This document shows positions 28,636 to 64,000 of a stretch of 64,000 nucleotides of DNA, piece by piece. The notes under the pieces are model-generated. The model did no database searches, had not been told where the DNA came from, and saw nothing but the letters and a program-made list of their open reading frames with translations. Every line of letters begins with the position of its first letter. Positions within the stretch are counted from its first letter, which is position 1. Both the position numbers and the translations under genes were made by a program. Source of the stretch: a virus; IMG/VR virus record IMGVR_UViG_3300028027_000047, positions 52,221-116,220 of that record. One strand, given 5' to 3'.

Positions 28636-28836
28636 ATGGAAACTACAAAAAAGAGTTATATAAAGACATTTAGCTGGGAAGCTTTTCATTTCACAGTGCT
28701 TGCTGGAATCATTTATTTATTTACAGGCGACTGGGAATACTCGGGCATTGGGGCATTAGTTTATATTGGAATTGAATCTTTAGGGTATTTTGTACATGAA
28801 AGATTATGGGCAAGATTTGGGAATAAGCTTAAATGA
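28636..28836 (+). CDS. DUF2061-like membrane protein
   Basis: A 66-residue membrane protein with two hydrophobic segments and the family-like signature Y-I-K-T-x-S-W near the start and F-V-H-E-R-x-W near the end. The protein at 32843 is a second member. DUF2061 proteins are often encoded with sulfate-activation genes. An AGGAG site precedes the ATG. Confidence 0.65.
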   Translation: METTKKSYIKTFSWEAFHFTVLAGIIYLFTGDWEYSGIGALVYIGIESLGYFVHERLWARFGNKLK

Positions 28837-29744
28837 AATTTCCAATATTGCAAGAACAGTTCTATACTCAAGAAGAATTAGATTCAGCCAATAGTTTTAT
28901 GAAAAGCATATTAGATGCACCAACATGGAGAATGCTTAAAGAAATAACTAGAGAGCAGATTGAAACCGATATGCTTGTTCCAGTAGTTGATCACTTTTTA
29001 GCAAGAGCACAATGCTCGCTTCCAGAACATAAGGTGCCAGAAGAAATTTTAAGAAAACCAAAAGAAGAAGCAAAAAAAATTAATCCCAACGCACAGATTA
29101 GATTTGTTTCTTTTGTTAGATACTCAAATCAATTTGGCTTTCCTCAACTAGGACCACACCTAGATCCAGTATCAAAAGAACATTTCTTTTTTGATGTACA
29201 GCTAGACGGTAACGTAGATTGGCCAATAGTTGTTGCAGAAGAAGACCCAGAAGCCCCAGATAAGAAGGGCAATGTAGTGGGGTATAGTTTAAAGAACAAT
29301 GATTCTTTGTGTATTGAAATTACTAGACAAGCGCATTGGAGAACCCCAGTTAAATTTAAAGATGGGGACTTCATCGATATGATATTTATAAGCTTTGAGG
29401 ATCCCAACATTGAACCGCCAACACTTGAGTGGCAAACGGAGATCGGATTGAAGTATATGGATGACTATGAGGCAGAACTTGAATTAATATATCCAAAAAA
29501 CACTACAATAACATTTGATCAACGTGCAGAGTATGCAAAAAATAATGTTAAGCAGATGGGCAAGCTAGATCTAAATGCAGTATCTGCAGAAGAGGGTTCT
29601 GGAAAGAAGCAGGACAATGAAATAAGCTTCTTAGACAATAAAAAAGATTTTTATACATTAAAGCAAGAGGCAGAAGCAAAGAAAAAAAATGATGACCCAA
29701 GCTGTATGGTAGAAATGATGAATGAAATGAGGGAAAAAAATTAA
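28833..29744 (+). CDS. divergent 2OG/Fe(II) oxygenase-like protein (DW subfamily)
   Basis: A 303-residue protein with H-x-D in GPHLDPVSKEH, a DWPIVVAEE block and a distal His in RQAHWRTP, the order expected for a double-stranded beta-helix oxygenase. The C-terminal 100 residues are charged and helical. The gene after it (29740) and those at 31449 and 34785 share the HxD...DW...H(W/F)R pattern, so they form a subfamily. Activity is inferred. Confidence 0.62.
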   Translation: MKFPILQEQFYTQEELDSANSFMKSILDAPTWRMLKEITREQIETDMLVPVVDHFLARAQCSLPEHKVPEEILRKPKEEAKKINPNAQIRFVSFVRYSNQFGFPQLGPHLDPVSKEHFFFDVQLDGNVDWPIVVAEEDPEAPDKKGNVVGYSLKNNDSLCIEITRQAHWRTPVKFKDGDFIDMIFISFEDPNIEPPTLEWQTEIGLKYMDDYEAELELIYPKNTTITFDQRAEYAKNNVKQMGKLDLNAVSAEEGSGKKQDNEISFLDNKKDFYTLKQEAEAKKKNDDPSCMVEMMNEMREKN

Positions 29745-30459
29745 ATTCCCTTTTGTAATAAAAGACATTCTAACTGAAGAAGAGCTAAATTTGTTTAGAA
29801 ATTTCATGGATGATCTATTAAAAAACAAAAATTATATAATGCTTTCTGATATTTCTAGAGAAACAATTGAAACAAATATGAATGATTGGGTGGTCGACCA
29901 CTACCTTGGACGAATTCAATGCAGCTTGCAGGACTGGGAGATGTCTGATGAATTAAAGCAAATAATAACCAAATTTGCAAAACAATTTAATGAAAATGCT
30001 GAATTTAGATACGTTTCTTTTGTAAGATATTCAAAAGATTTTGGTTTCCCACAGTTGGGGCCACATTTAGATCCTCCAACAAAAGAACATTTCATGTTTG
30101 ATATACAGCTAAGGTCGACTTTAGACTGGCCAATAGTTGTCGCACAAGATGATGAAATAAAAGAGTATACATTAAATACAAATGACGCTCTTGTTTTAGA
30201 AATAACTAGAAATGCTCATTGGAGAAAACCACTAAGGTTTGAAGACAGTGATTATTTAGATATGCTATTTTTTAGCTATACTGACAACAGTCTAGACATA
30301 CCATCCTTAGAATGGCAGTCAGAGACTGGTTTAAAACATATGGATTCATACAATGAAGAATTGGCTACGGTTTATCCAGAGTCAGAAAAAGAAATTAGAG
30401 ATAGATATACTAACTCTATAAAAAAAGAAAACTTTATACTTCAAGGGCAGGTAAGATAA
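29740..30459 (+). CDS. divergent 2OG/Fe(II) oxygenase-like protein, probable ATT start
   Basis: A 239-residue paralogue of the preceding gene: GPHLDPPTKEH, DWPIVVAQD and NAHWRKP. Alignment with the paralogue (which begins M-K-F-P) places the start at ATT 29740, where I-K-F-P is encoded, overlapping the previous TAA in an ATTAA junction and preceded by GAGGG with 6-nt spacing. No ATG, GTG or TTG occurs in frame before a TTG at 29791, which would remove 17 conserved residues. Confidence 0.62.
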   Translation: MKFPFVIKDILTEEELNLFRNFMDDLLKNKNYIMLSDISRETIETNMNDWVVDHYLGRIQCSLQDWEMSDELKQIITKFAKQFNENAEFRYVSFVRYSKDFGFPQLGPHLDPPTKEHFMFDIQLRSTLDWPIVVAQDDEIKEYTLNTNDALVLEITRNAHWRKPLRFEDSDYLDMLFFSYTDNSLDIPSLEWQSETGLKHMDSYNEELATVYPESEKEIRDRYTNSIKKENFILQGQVR

Positions 30460-31448: not shown

Positions 31449-32045
31449 GTGAAATCATTTTATGAAAAAAATGTTTTTGAAGAAGAAGATTTTAATGCTT
31501 TAAAAGAAATAGCATTCAAAGACCTGTCATCAGAAAACATATATTTTTCAGAAGCCTATAGTAGATACTATGCTATAACTGATTTTCCAGAAAATATAAA
31601 GGCAAAGATCGTTGACTTGGCGAATAAAAAATTTAATACAAAAGATTTAGACATTGTTTATACACATGCAGTAAAGTACCAAATAGTAAATGGCATAAAG
31701 CCTAGCCTTAAAAAGCATTTAGATAATTTGCCATCAACCCATGTTATTGATTTATGTGTAGAGACTACATTGCCAGATTGGGGACTTACCGTTGGTGATG
31801 ATTTTTTTCAAGACGACCCCAACTCTGCAGTATTTCTATACGGGAAAGAAGATATTCATTTTAGGCCAGACTATACTTCTGAAGATGAAAATGATTACTG
31901 CGTAATGTTTCTTATTAATTTGGCACCCCCAGGTCATTGGGGGCATAAAGCCGCAGACTCTTTAAAGTTAATGCCAGAACACTTAAGGCAAAAAATGATA
32001 GACCAGCTGACACCACACCACAGAAAGAAAGACATGAACAAATGA
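31449..32045 (+). CDS. divergent 2OG/Fe(II) oxygenase-like protein (DW subfamily)
   Basis: A 198-residue protein from a GTG start. KKHLDN gives the H-x-D, LPDWGLTV the DW block and DIHFRPD the distal His. It belongs with 28833, 29740 and 34785. It overlaps the APS kinase fusion gene by 4 nt, tying the oxygenases to the sulfate-activation gene. Confidence 0.55.
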   Translation: MKSFYEKNVFEEEDFNALKEIAFKDLSSENIYFSEAYSRYYAITDFPENIKAKIVDLANKKFNTKDLDIVYTHAVKYQIVNGIKPSLKKHLDNLPSTHVIDLCVETTLPDWGLTVGDDFFQDDPNSAVFLYGKEDIHFRPDYTSEDENDYCVMFLINLAPPGHWGHKAADSLKLMPEHLRQKMIDQLTPHHRKKDMNK

Positions 32046-33924: not shown

Positions 33925-34788
33925 ATGACTGGTAAATTAATTGTAGGATCCATGCCGCTAGGCAATTTAGAAGATATAACATTGAGAATGCTTGATGCAT
34001 TTAAAAATGCAGATATTATTTTATCCGACTACCCGACAACATATGCAGATCAACTATTGGAAAAATATGAAATCAATAAAAATTTAATAATCTTAAAAAG
34101 CTTTCATTCGTGTCACGCAGATAGGGAGCAGCTAGACTATGTAATTAGTTCTATCAGGGATGGGCTAACTGTCTTAATCATTTGTTCGGAGGGCCAGGTT
34201 GCCGTATCCGATCCAGGAGTACAATACATTCAGGAGTGCATTAGGCTAAGCCTGCCGTACGTGGTGCTTCCAGGCCCTAACGCAGGCATACAGGCACTTG
34301 TAGCAAGCGGACTATCAAATGGAAGGGTTTTTATACATCCCACAATTGAACCTAAAAATGTTGATACTGAATTCCCATTGCTTAAGGATGTTCAGACAAG
34401 CCTAACTGTTTATGTCTGGGGTAAGGATATACCAAAAATTCTTGAAATTATTGAAAAAGATTTTAAGTGGGAAACAGATCAAAATGAGCAATATGCAAAT
34501 AAACTTATATCATTTTGCTGCGATCTAACATTGCCTACAGAGTTTATAGTTACTGGGTGGGCACACGAAATATCTAAGCACCCAGACCTGCAAAAGATTA
34601 CTACTAGAACTAAGGTTACTATTGTTATGGGAGAAATGATGCACATGGAAGATTGTGATCATCATATTTGTAATTCAATTAGAAGCCTGTACCCAGGACA
34701 AAAGTATCTAGGTGAGCCACAAAAGCCAGTGGATACTACAAAGTTTTATTGTGAGCACCCAAAAGATCCGTGGACTTATAGCAATTAG
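33925..34788 (+). CDS. RsmI-like SAM-dependent methyltransferase
   Basis: A 287-residue tetrapyrrole-methylase-fold protein. GKLIVGSMPLGNLEDITLRM matches the RsmI opening (family: GxLYVVaTPIGNLxDIT), and GQVAVSDPG matches the second block (family: GTPLISDPG). RsmI 2'-O-methylates C1402 of 16S rRNA. The GTP/Leu positions differ (SMPLG, EGQVAV) so the substrate may have changed. An AGGAAAT site precedes the ATG. It ends against a convergent gene with a 4-nt overlap. Confidence 0.75.
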   Translation: MTGKLIVGSMPLGNLEDITLRMLDAFKNADIILSDYPTTYADQLLEKYEINKNLIILKSFHSCHADREQLDYVISSIRDGLTVLIICSEGQVAVSDPGVQYIQECIRLSLPYVVLPGPNAGIQALVASGLSNGRVFIHPTIEPKNVDTEFPLLKDVQTSLTVYVWGKDIPKILEIIEKDFKWETDQNEQYANKLISFCCDLTLPTEFIVTGWAHEISKHPDLQKITTRTKVTIVMGEMMHMEDCDHHICNSIRSLYPGQKYLGEPQKPVDTTKFYCEHPKDPWTYSN

Positions 34789-35420
34789 CTAGAATACTTT
34801 TCGTCTTTATTACCAATGCCAGTGAGATCTATTAAAAAGTTAGACCTTTCATCTTGCATCTTAAAATGATTTTCTTGCAAAGGTCTGTCTGGTAGATAAG
34901 AGAAGTTGCATACAAGCATATCAATTTCTGCGTCTTCTCTTAAATCAATGTGCTCTCTCCAGTGCTGCTGCTGGGTTCCAGCGAATATTAAACCTTGGTT
35001 GTATTTAAGTACTGTTTCTTTGCCTTCTACAACAACTCCCCAATCTTGATTTGAATTAAGCTGGATGTCAATTGTTACTCTTTGAGACACCCTATCGTCA
35101 TAATGTGGGAACAATTTAGGAATATATCCATATTTTGGGTTGTATCTAATAAAGAAATACTCTTTTAGTATTAGAGTTATTCCAATTTTATCTCTAATTA
35201 CTTGATTCAGTCTTTGATACATATGCTTGTCTACCATTAAGTTCCAGCTTTTTCTTCCGCCCCAAGCTTGAACAGTAGACTCACTTTGTTCAATAATTTT
35301 GTACAAATCTTTAATATTTTCTTCTGTGAGAACGTCGTCTACGACTCTAATTTCAAAGTCCTCATCAATTATAGGACCCTGATTTTTTTTAAATTCATTA
35401 TATTTATCTTGATCTATCAT
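34785..35420 (-). CDS. divergent 2OG/Fe(II) oxygenase-like protein (DW subfamily)
   Basis: A 211-residue protein and the only minus-strand gene in this region. FPHYDDRVSQ gives H-x-D, NQDWGVVVEG the DW block and QQHWREHI the distal His. A TATAAT box (35427-35432, read on the minus strand) lies exactly 6 nt before its ATG, so it is leaderless. It probably moved or inverted within the island. Confidence 0.58.
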   Translation of the reverse strand: MIDQDKYNEFKKNQGPIIDEDFEIRVVDDVLTEENIKDLYKIIEQSESTVQAWGGRKSWNLMVDKHMYQRLNQVIRDKIGITLILKEYFFIRYNPKYGYIPKLFPHYDDRVSQRVTIDIQLNSNQDWGVVVEGKETVLKYNQGLIFAGTQQQHWREHIDLREDAEIDMLVCNFSYLPDRPLQENHFKMQDERSNFLIDLTGIGNKDEKYSS

Positions 35421-36156: not shown

Positions 36157-36181
36157 CTTTTCTACTCTAAAGTGAGATAAT
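36153..36181 (+). promoter_or_regulatory. sigma70-type promoter, leaderless
   Basis: TTGACT, 17-nt spacer, GATAAT, then 7 nt to the ATG at 36189. Confidence 0.68.
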
Positions 36182-36188
36182 GATTTGT

Positions 36189-36785
36189 ATGATAGAAAAA
36201 ACAGATCCTATGTCAGAAAAATTAGGCAATAGCATTGATAATATAAAAATTATTAAAAACTATATGCCGCATAATCATATTGATGAAATTTTAAGCTACA
36301 CTGATCTATACCTTGACAAAAATCCAACATTAGATTTAAAAATTAAAATTAAAAATGCTTATTCTCAAAGAGAGCTTTTAAAAGCATACGAGTACCTGCT
36401 TAGATCTGAAGCCGAAAAGCTTTATGGCTGGGAGTTTGAAAGAGATAGAACAGTAGACTTTAATAATCGTGAGGCTGGTTCCTCTGTTCCAGAGCATACA
36501 GATATGATTCAACCTCATTTTTTTGATCCGCTCGAACCAGTATATTCTTGGTATCAAAATCAATATTCTTGGAGCGGACATCTATCTTTAATCGTATATC
36601 TAAATGATGATTTTGAAGGCGGGGAGTTGGTATTCCCGCAGCACAACTTAACAATTAAACCAGAAAAGGGAATGCTTATTGCTTTTCCTGGAAACCTTTA
36701 CTTCCATCATGAAGTCAAAGAGGTTAAGTCTGGAACAAGAAAAACAATTTCTTTATGGACAAAATTTAAAGGATTTTCTTTATGA
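36189..36785 (+). CDS. 2-oxoglutarate/Fe(II) oxygenase, prolyl-4-hydroxylase type
   Basis: A 198-residue oxygenase with all key residues: H-x-D in PEHTDMI, LNDDFEGGELVFP, distal His in YFHHEV and Arg in SGTRKTI. I prefer ATG 36189 because it lies 7 nt after the -10 box; an ATG at 36180 overlaps the box. Coupled to the next small gene. Confidence 0.82.
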   Translation: MIEKTDPMSEKLGNSIDNIKIIKNYMPHNHIDEILSYTDLYLDKNPTLDLKIKIKNAYSQRELLKAYEYLLRSEAEKLYGWEFERDRTVDFNNREAGSSVPEHTDMIQPHFFDPLEPVYSWYQNQYSWSGHLSLIVYLNDDFEGGELVFPQHNLTIKPEKGMLIAFPGNLYFHHEVKEVKSGTRKTISLWTKFKGFSL

Positions 36786-36952
36786 AAAGAATAATATGCA
36801 TGATCAAGGGCCATATGTCTAGAGAGTCTAGCTGTCCATTTACTGGGAATCTGTATGACATATGTGACAATTGTGGCAAGAAAAATGTAATCGGCAACAT
36901 ATCTAATCAATACAAATTTGATGAGATAAATAAGACTTGGAGAACAATATGA
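36782..36952 (+). CDS. small zinc-finger protein
   Basis: A 56-residue protein with cysteines at about 6, 18, 27 and 30 (C-x2-C in CDNC). It overlaps both neighbours by 4 nt. No family recognised. Confidence 0.6.
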   Translation: MKRIICMIKGHMSRESSCPFTGNLYDICDNCGKKNVIGNISNQYKFDEINKTWRTI

Positions 36953-37080
36953 TACCTATCGGAACTATAGAATGTGAAACATGCAATGAAACTATTGAAT
37001 TAACTGTAAACCATTTGCTAGAATCTGGTAATTATTGTCAATCTTGCTATCAAAAGGATGTTGACAAAATAAATGGCTAG
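36949..37080 (+). CDS. small zinc-ribbon protein
   Basis: A 43-residue protein with CETC and CQSC, a minimal zinc ribbon. It overlaps the CDGSH-oxygenase gene by 8 nt. Confidence 0.6.
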   Translation: MIPIGTIECETCNETIELTVNHLLESGNYCQSCYQKDVDKING

Positions 37081-37804
37081 AGACTGTGTTTGTGGAAGAT
37101 CCCTTAAGTTTCCATATTGTGATGGCACACACAATAGGTTAGAGAAGCTTAATTTAAAACCAGCACCTCCTAAAGATACATCGACTATACACGGAATGCT
37201 GCTCGATGATGGGCTTCCGTACAAAGTATATAAAAATCTTATGCCAGAGGAAACAAGAATAAGGCTTTTAAATATGATGAAGACATTGGATCAAGAGTTT
37301 TGGCACGACAGCTCTTGCACAAATGACCCAGTAGATCAACTACGAATGCATATGCCAAGATCAATTAATCATGAGTTATGGAAAGTTGGCGCAGAAAATT
37401 ACCTTGAATGGGCAAAGCTATTTAATGCAGAAGTTAACAATGTCAGCTACTCACACCCGCTAGACCATGGAAGAATTGTAGACAGAAGAGGCCCAGGTGC
37501 CTTCTTAGGAAAGCATCAAGACGTTCCAACTGGAGATTTTGCTAAATATTTTGGAGCAGCTCCAGGTGAATCTTTAATGGAATTTACTCAAATTTTTTAT
37601 TGGAATGATGATTTTGAAGGGGGCGAGCTAGTATTTTGTGAAAGCGACTTTATAAAAGAGCCAATAGTCTACAAACCAGTTGCTGGTGACGTAATAGTTT
37701 TTAGATCCCACCATGAGCACGAGATACTCCCAATTATTGCTGGCGAAAGATACTCTTCCCAATATTTCTTCTACAACAAGAAAAAGCCTAGACCCCCTGC
37801 TTAA
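37073..37804 (+). CDS. CDGSH iron-sulfur motif fused to 2-oxoglutarate/Fe(II) oxygenase
   Basis: A 243-residue fusion. Residues 5-20 match the CDGSH [2Fe-2S] consensus C-x-C-x2-S-x3-P-x-C-D-G-T-H at every position. Residues 45-240 form an oxygenase: H-x-D in LGKHQDVP, WNDDFEGGELVF, distal His in HEHEILP and Arg in GERYSS. The Fe-S motif may deliver electrons to keep the iron reduced or sense redox state. I have not met this fusion before; that needs a domain-architecture search. Confidence 0.82.
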   Translation: MARDCVCGRSLKFPYCDGTHNRLEKLNLKPAPPKDTSTIHGMLLDDGLPYKVYKNLMPEETRIRLLNMMKTLDQEFWHDSSCTNDPVDQLRMHMPRSINHELWKVGAENYLEWAKLFNAEVNNVSYSHPLDHGRIVDRRGPGAFLGKHQDVPTGDFAKYFGAAPGESLMEFTQIFYWNDDFEGGELVFCESDFIKEPIVYKPVAGDVIVFRSHHEHEILPIIAGERYSSQYFFYNKKKPRPPA

Positions 37805-63166: not shown

Positions 63167-64000
63167 ATGGCATCATTAAGAATACAACTTAGAAGAGACA
63201 CAGCAGCAAACTGGGTGTCTAACAACCCAATACTATTATCAGGTGAACTTGGCATTGAAACAGATACCCTTAAGTTTAAAATTGGTAATGGTTCAAGATG
63301 GAATGCAACAACTTCCTATGCATTTAAAGCTGGAGAAGCCAATGGCCTAGCCACACTAAACTCTTCTGGAAAAATTCCTTCATCTCAGCTACCAGATTCA
63401 ATATCAGTAGGAGGAGACTTTACAGCAGCAATTGCAGCTTTAACTACAAACTCTATTACAGAAGGCTCAACAAATAAATATTTTACAAATCAAAGAGCAA
63501 TCGACGCAGTGGCTTCAGCTATTTCATCTGCAATCGCAGCCGAAACTACAAATAGAAATACTGCCATTGCAACTGCAAAAACAGAGGCAATAAATACAGC
63601 TTCAAATGATGCTACAAACAAATCTGCAACTGCAAAAGCAGAAGCTATTGCTGCTGCTGGAATCGCAGCAGATAATAAAGATACAGCATCAGCAGCTTCT
63701 GCAGTCACAACAGCAAATTCTTATACAGATACTAAGATTGCAACAGAAGTTTCAAATAGAAGCAATGCAATAAATACAGCAATATCAACTGAAATTACAA
63801 ACAGAAATACTGCAATCACCGCAGCAGTTTCTGGCATTACTGCTGGTACTGGAACTCAAGGTCCTGCTGGCGAAACAGGCGCAACTGGTCCACAAGGATT
63901 AAAAGGTGACACTGGCGCAACAGGCGCAACTGGTCCACAAGGATTAAAAGGTGACACTGGCGCAACAGGCGCAACTGGTCCACAAGGATTAAAAGGTGAC
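63167..64000 (+). CDS. tail fibre with collagen-like repeats, 3' end beyond window
   Basis: At least 278 residues, open at the window end. [30 protein letters not shown] is a widespread fibre opening; then an Ala/Thr/Asn-rich helical coiled coil (about 80-225), then G-x-y collagen triplets ([22 protein letters not shown]). The collagen part starts near residue 228. It is a plausible hydroxylation substrate for the prolyl-4-hydroxylase-like enzymes. Confidence 0.78.
63866..64000 (+). repeat. 45-nt tandem repeat coding a 15-residue collagen-like unit
   Basis: Three units to the window end; the second (63911-63955) and third (63956-64000) are identical and the first differs at a few bases. Each encodes five G-x-y triplets. 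Confidence 0.9.

Follow-up and report, generated by a model that had tools for sequence, protein, structure and literature searches.

A minimal CDGSH-type knuckle joined to 2OG/Fe(II) oxygenases in environmental phages

What keeps 2OG oxygenases reduced in organisms that are free of ascorbate is an open question, and a partner that is fused or adjacent to such an enzyme offers a direct test of redox or iron supply. A candidate partner occurs in the window, by which we mean the whole 64,000-nucleotide stretch of DNA analyzed here, which spans bases 52221-116220 in a virus record of 116,220 bp. One of its genes had been read as a CDGSH iron-sulfur motif directly in front of a complete 2OG/Fe(II) oxygenase, and the original prediction proposed that this motif could supply or sense electrons in place of ascorbate. 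The locus thus raises the question of whether the fusion is genuine, whether its motif is a CDGSH domain, and what it could do for the enzyme. Its features are as follows.

36180-36785, plus strand: neighboring 2OG oxygenase without a knuckle (PF13640, E 1.5e-12)
36949-37080, plus strand: 43-aa CxxC...CxxC ORF, overlapping the fusion gene by 8 nt
37073-37804, plus strand: CDGSH-2OG oxygenase fusion gene, 243 aa (ORF and Pfam)
37085-37132, plus strand: mini-CDGSH knuckle, residues 5-20, CVCGRSLKFPYCDGTH (exact consensus and PF09360)
37133-37213, plus strand: linker, residues 21-47 (about 27 residues), predicted flexible (AlphaFold2 pLDDT)
37214-37777, plus strand: 2OG/Fe(II) oxygenase domain, predicted prolyl-hydroxylase fold (PF13640, Foldseek)
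37514-37522, plus strand: HxD iron ligands H148 and D150, invariant in 36 aligned oxygenases
37718-37720, plus strand: distal iron ligand H216, invariant in 36 aligned oxygenases
37748-37750, plus strand: R226, presumed 2OG-binding arginine, invariant in smaller alignments

The protein begins MARDCVCGRSLKFPYCDGTH..., and the ATG of its gene overlaps the stop codon of the preceding ORF (ATGGCTAG). As predicted, residues 5-20 match the consensus C-x-C-x2-S-x3-P-x-C-D-G-T-H exactly, with C5, C7, C16 and H20 as putative ligands and only the residues MARD ahead of the motif. The zf-CDGSH model (PF09360) matches the whole protein with an E-value of 1.6e-5 and 25.5 bits, under its 29.5-bit cut-off, and scores 29.9 bits, above the cut-off, in a six-frame search; the alignment spans only positions 32-48 of the 48 in the profile. 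The oxygenase that follows is complete, with an above-threshold match to 2OG-FeII_Oxy_3 (PF13640, E 4e-11) and, in alignments, the HxD...H triad and 2OG-binding arginine typical of 2OG/Fe(II) oxygenases; R226 is invariant both in the four-member family of the window and in six fused proteins. The AlphaFold2 model (mean pLDDT 74, core mostly 70-94) and Foldseek indicate a double-stranded beta-helix, with 4j25, 3dkq, 9qn0, 5c5t and PHD2 as neighbors (E 1e-7 to 3e-10), the best being Pseudomonas putida prolyl-4-hydroxylase, PiuC, a viral collagen prolyl hydroxylase and PHD2. The enzyme is thus classified, from sequence and model, as a predicted 2OG/Fe(II) oxygenase of prolyl-hydroxylase fold. The proposed arrangement holds insofar as the motif is N-terminal to the enzyme, but it does not lie directly in front: a flexible linker of about 27 residues intervenes (pLDDT about 36 over residues 21-40; residues 21-42 predicted disordered). 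The knuckle itself has a pLDDT of only 51-55 and no defined packing onto the enzyme, and the model leaves its position unsettled.

Two trivial origins of the fusion were ruled out. A chance match is opposed by the expectation of about 5e-7 consensus matches in the six frames of the 116-kb record, as well as by selection and recurrence. An assembly artefact is rejected because a 100% identical fusion protein occurs in two further IMG/VR contigs and other fusions come from many metagenomes. A scan of viral sequences with the general CDGSH consensus gave at least 120 matches, and those listed include numerous very small CDGSH ORFs of phages as well as additional 2OG oxygenase fusions. The complete scan of viral sequences for the sub-motif CGRS/T-xx-Y/F-PYCDGTH returned 60 stretches, and in 23 of them the knuckle is joined to a 2OG oxygenase: the window type accounts for two (the identical protein), the L142 type (family B) for one and the L088 type (family C) for 20. 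Searching with the L142 protein yielded 14 more family-B fusions, for a total of 15 family-B contigs, in which the four ligands are intact even though the oxygenase body, not the motif, was used for retrieval. This search also found L191 and L192, in which a family-C fusion comes after a family-B enzyme that lacks a fused knuckle. Besides the window's family, two oxygenase families therefore carry a knuckle of 20 N-terminal residues, in about 37 environmental phage contigs. Both domains were confirmed with Pfam in L142, L088, L177 and L191, zf-CDGSH being above the cut-off in L088 and the free knuckles and just under it in L142, L177 and L191.

Purifying selection acts on the knuckle as strongly as on the enzyme: in family C, pN/pS is 0.125 for the knuckle and 0.134 for the enzyme, and in family B 0.118 and 0.091, respectively. 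The C, C, C and H ligands are constant in all fused relatives found. Position 15 changes from Gly to Asn in most family-B fusions and to Glu in L191 and L192, where the CDGTH of the knuckle (L191:4028-4870) has become CDETH; CDGSH domains are said to be invariant at this position. Asn would be compatible with a left-handed backbone turn there, and Glu less so.

The three carriers appear to have acquired the knuckle separately. In a tree built with the knuckle trimmed, every carrier clusters with unfused oxygenases: the window oxygenase with L004 and L005 (SH-aLRT 98), L142 with L049 (SH-aLRT 98), and L031 with L064 (SH-aLRT 97). Placing the three carriers together costs 142 lnL units, which rules out a single ancestral fused oxygenase; the exact p-value is not to be trusted because the tree is a quick one with long branches. 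Unfused oxygenases occur in the carrier families (L004, L005, L191), and the nearest relatives of the window protein (L004-L006) begin at the oxygenase, without a knuckle.

Similarly, the knuckle recurs as a free-standing ORF of 30-45 aa. Among 18 distinct free knuckles, 15 have a 2OG gene no more than 60 nt away, a count in which related phages remain because deduplication was by exact sequence only; 33 of 178 other non-oxygenase genes of these loci are so placed (odds ratio 22, Fisher p 4.7e-8). L025 and L049 have, ahead of the family-C oxygenase that L088 carries as a fusion, a separate knuckle ORF that overlaps this gene by 4 nt and has 2OG genes on both sides. No 2OG gene was found in the fetched DNA of five free-knuckle contigs (L042, L070, L090, L160 and L167; three distinct sequences). 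Other phage CDGSH types (host-like, tandem, and KOW-like plus CDGSH) show absent or weaker linkage to 2OG genes. Our computational analysis shows that the knuckle is dedicated to 2OG oxygenases in these phages, being fused to three families or abutting 2OG genes and maintained by selection, and we consider it very probable that it is a dedicated partner module of these enzymes. The predicted fusion is thus real, recurs on three unrelated oxygenase families and is selected.

The genomic setting adds several observations. Terminases of the Gilson/Faust group of Streptomyces phages share 61-64% identity with that of the record, which marks it as a phage, probably of an actinobacterium; Gilson is classified in Stanwilliamsviridae. 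A collagen-like repeat at 63851-64000, the end of the record, also occurs at its start (L293:7); because one repeat runs off the end and onto the start, a circular record in which a collagen-like gene spans the junction is probable. Immediately 5' of the fusion gene lie tiny Cys-rich CxxC ORFs, the 43-aa ORF and a short one before it; the former has zinc-ribbon-like Pfam matches only, all sub-threshold, and both are possibly zinc-ribbon proteins. Four further proteins (28833-29744, 29791-30459, 31449-32045 and 34785-35420, minus strand) show an HxD-like pattern (PHLDP, PHYDD or KHLD) followed by HWR or HFR; they have no Pfam match and are possibly divergent 2OG oxygenases. Elsewhere, islands in L142 (666-6997), L177, L179, L188 and L190 encode two phrog_7084 proteins together with five to seven 2OG oxygenases in tandem and a collagen-like tail fibre, and look like fibre-modification cassettes. 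In L034, L041, L053, L101, L124 and L279, a small SH3/KOW-like domain precedes a C-terminal CDGSH motif (zf-CDGSH above the cut-off, KOW weak); L279 shares a 116-kb contig with the knuckle-less, window-type oxygenase L006.

Whether the knuckle is a CDGSH domain can be judged against Lin et al. 2011 (PMC3174974), who define the domain as a 17-residue module with an N-terminal strand and a lid-proline motif, the module opening with a hydrophobic residue that is part of that strand, and whose structures are all dimeric or tandem. The knuckle holds nine of the nine residues listed there as universally conserved. The residue before the first Cys is not hydrophobic, being D4 in the window protein and Q in the other fusions; the N-strand of solved structures is absent, since four residues alone precede the motif; and inspection of residues 1-47 found no GP-hydrophobic-x-hydrophobic lid-proline motif, although a proline elsewhere or in trans could take its place. 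The window protein has a single CDGSH motif. By sequence, the knuckle has the metal-binding signature of the family while departing from the structural criteria of types 1-7. It may nevertheless work in a CDGSH-like manner, the missing parts being replaced by the enzyme or by a second copy. Given the missing hydrophobic residue, strand and lid-proline motif, a [2Fe-2S] cluster is only plausible, and we put its presence at slightly better than even.

The reading we prefer is that of a phage 2OG/Fe(II) oxygenase to which a minimal metal-binding knuckle of CDGSH type is attached N-terminally by a flexible tether. We infer that three Cys and one His would bind a [2Fe-2S] cluster, at a site probably completed when the enzyme dimerizes or a partner joins. 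The knuckle would let the oxygenase dispense with ascorbate, acting as a source of iron or as the reductant of the Fe(III) that uncoupled turnover leaves behind. In trans, a single free knuckle could be enough for an array of 5-9 oxygenases, while fusion would tie it to one; a small carrier present once per such array resembles a shared supplier more than a tether. NEET clusters are redox-active, the one of mitoNEET having an Em of about 0 mV (PMC6006223), and CISD3, with an Em of -33 mV, is reduced to a significant fraction in E. coli cells (PMC10937110), which makes a reduced cluster in the bacterial cytoplasm reasonable. As to the substrate, the fold would suggest prolyl-type protein hydroxylation; the collagen-like fibre gene adjoining the oxygenase array in L142 (L142:5792-6997), together with the collagen-like repeats at the junction of the window's record, hints at prolyl or lysyl hydroxylation of protein.

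The full mechanism, in which the knuckle, acting in cis or in trans, maintains the iron of the oxygenase in a reduced state or ensures its loading, is a tentative proposal. Its more specific form, a minimal [2Fe-2S] CDGSH protein acting as a dedicated, ascorbate-free electron or iron donor that is shared by arrays and repeatedly fused, is put forward with somewhat greater reserve. Counting against the preferred reading are the missing CDGSH elements, the changes at G15, the low pLDDT of the knuckle, the bacterial SEC-C proteins described below, the unfused enzymes and the five free knuckles without a 2OG gene. Electron supply, as originally proposed, is partly supported and is one of two leading explanations. 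If this reading is true, some 20 CDGSH residues would work without the usual beta-sandwich.

The other leading explanation is that the knuckle would bind one zinc or iron ion and, without electron transfer, dock the enzyme on the ribosome, on a nascent chain or on a substrate protein. Its main evidence comes from bacteria: among the best 80 of 116 relatives in our genome scan, seven loci (L205, L208, L213, L220, L241, L243 and L272) have a SEC-C-like knuckle (CxCGx7C[C/H]) N-terminal to a 2OG oxygenase, in L205 above the Pfam cut-off. They agree with the phage knuckles in the spacing of the third Cys and in N-terminal placement, and the HIF prolyl hydroxylase PHD2, a fold neighbor of the window enzyme, carries an N-terminal MYND zinc finger. 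The SEC-C domain of SecA, on a flexible linker as is predicted for the phage knuckle, attaches to 70S ribosomes, and its metal in vivo may be iron (PMC6620043). Because of these bacterial oxygenases, a metal knuckle joined to a 2OG oxygenase appears to be a repeated design and docking a serious rival. Pfam nevertheless does not support the phage knuckle as a SEC-C domain (CxCx8(C)(C/H)): zf-CDGSH matches it whereas the SEC-C model (PF02810) does not at E<=1, an Asp follows its third Cys with no fourth Cys or His beside it, and it has the CDGSH-specific P11, D14 and H17. Moreover, a free knuckle of 40 aa cannot tether an enzyme unless it also binds that enzyme. Docking would on balance be rather unlikely.

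The supplier reading is also preferable to a sensor, in which the oxygenase would be turned on or off by a labile cluster responding to iron or oxidants. NEET clusters are indeed labile, and pH and redox state affect them (PMC6006223), but the sequence offers nothing that favors sensing over supply, and conserved free knuckles within oxygenase arrays better fit a shared supplier, which leaves the sensor improbable. That the knuckle only stabilizes the protein, or was captured by read-through with no specific role, is already disfavored and very improbable: related phages show both fusion and separation, which implies that accidents of stop-codon loss are frequent, but the knuckle is under purifying selection equal to the enzyme's, its ligands are invariant, it was fused three separate times and its neighborhood linkage is strong.

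The proposal that the fusion is new agrees with our searches. It was absent from isolate phages in tblastn searches with three fusions and one free knuckle (the 40-aa query having low sensitivity); no CDGSH motif was present in the best 80 of 116 relatives in bacterial genomes (418 pattern matches); no single Pfam, PHROGs or NCBIfam model spans both domains; and nothing relevant on phage CDGSH proteins or CDGSH with a dioxygenase appeared in the openly accessible literature searched. Both parts belong to known families, and it is their combination that has no match in the models, published CDGSH types and literature searched.

Compared with known systems, the knuckle shares the nine universal residues with CDGSH/NEET proteins (CISD types 1-7, PF09360; closest PDB sequence CISD3, 6avj), but consists of the 17-residue module only, without its hydrophobic first residue, N-strand or lid-proline motif. 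Oxygenase fusions are not among the seven published types, of which type 5 carries a glutamate synthase FMN-binding domain and type 7 a DUF1271. With the prolyl-hydroxylase/PKHD group (P. putida P4H 4j25, PiuC 9qn0, vCPH 5c5t and PHD2), the window protein shares the predicted fold, the HxD...H ligands and the arginine; it adds the N-terminal knuckle and has no close sequence relative of known function. Homology to phage 2OG oxygenases extends to the cyanophage 2OG-Fe(II) oxygenases of phrog_61, where the match covers the oxygenase only and the knuckle is unmatched. The bacterial SEC-C-2OG oxygenases (L205, L208, L213 and others) have in common with the phage fusion an N-terminal CxC...C knuckle before the oxygenase, and differ in the SEC-C-like knuckle, in falling mostly into one separate oxygenase clade and in being cellular; if the metal proves to be zinc, a docking principle would be common to both.
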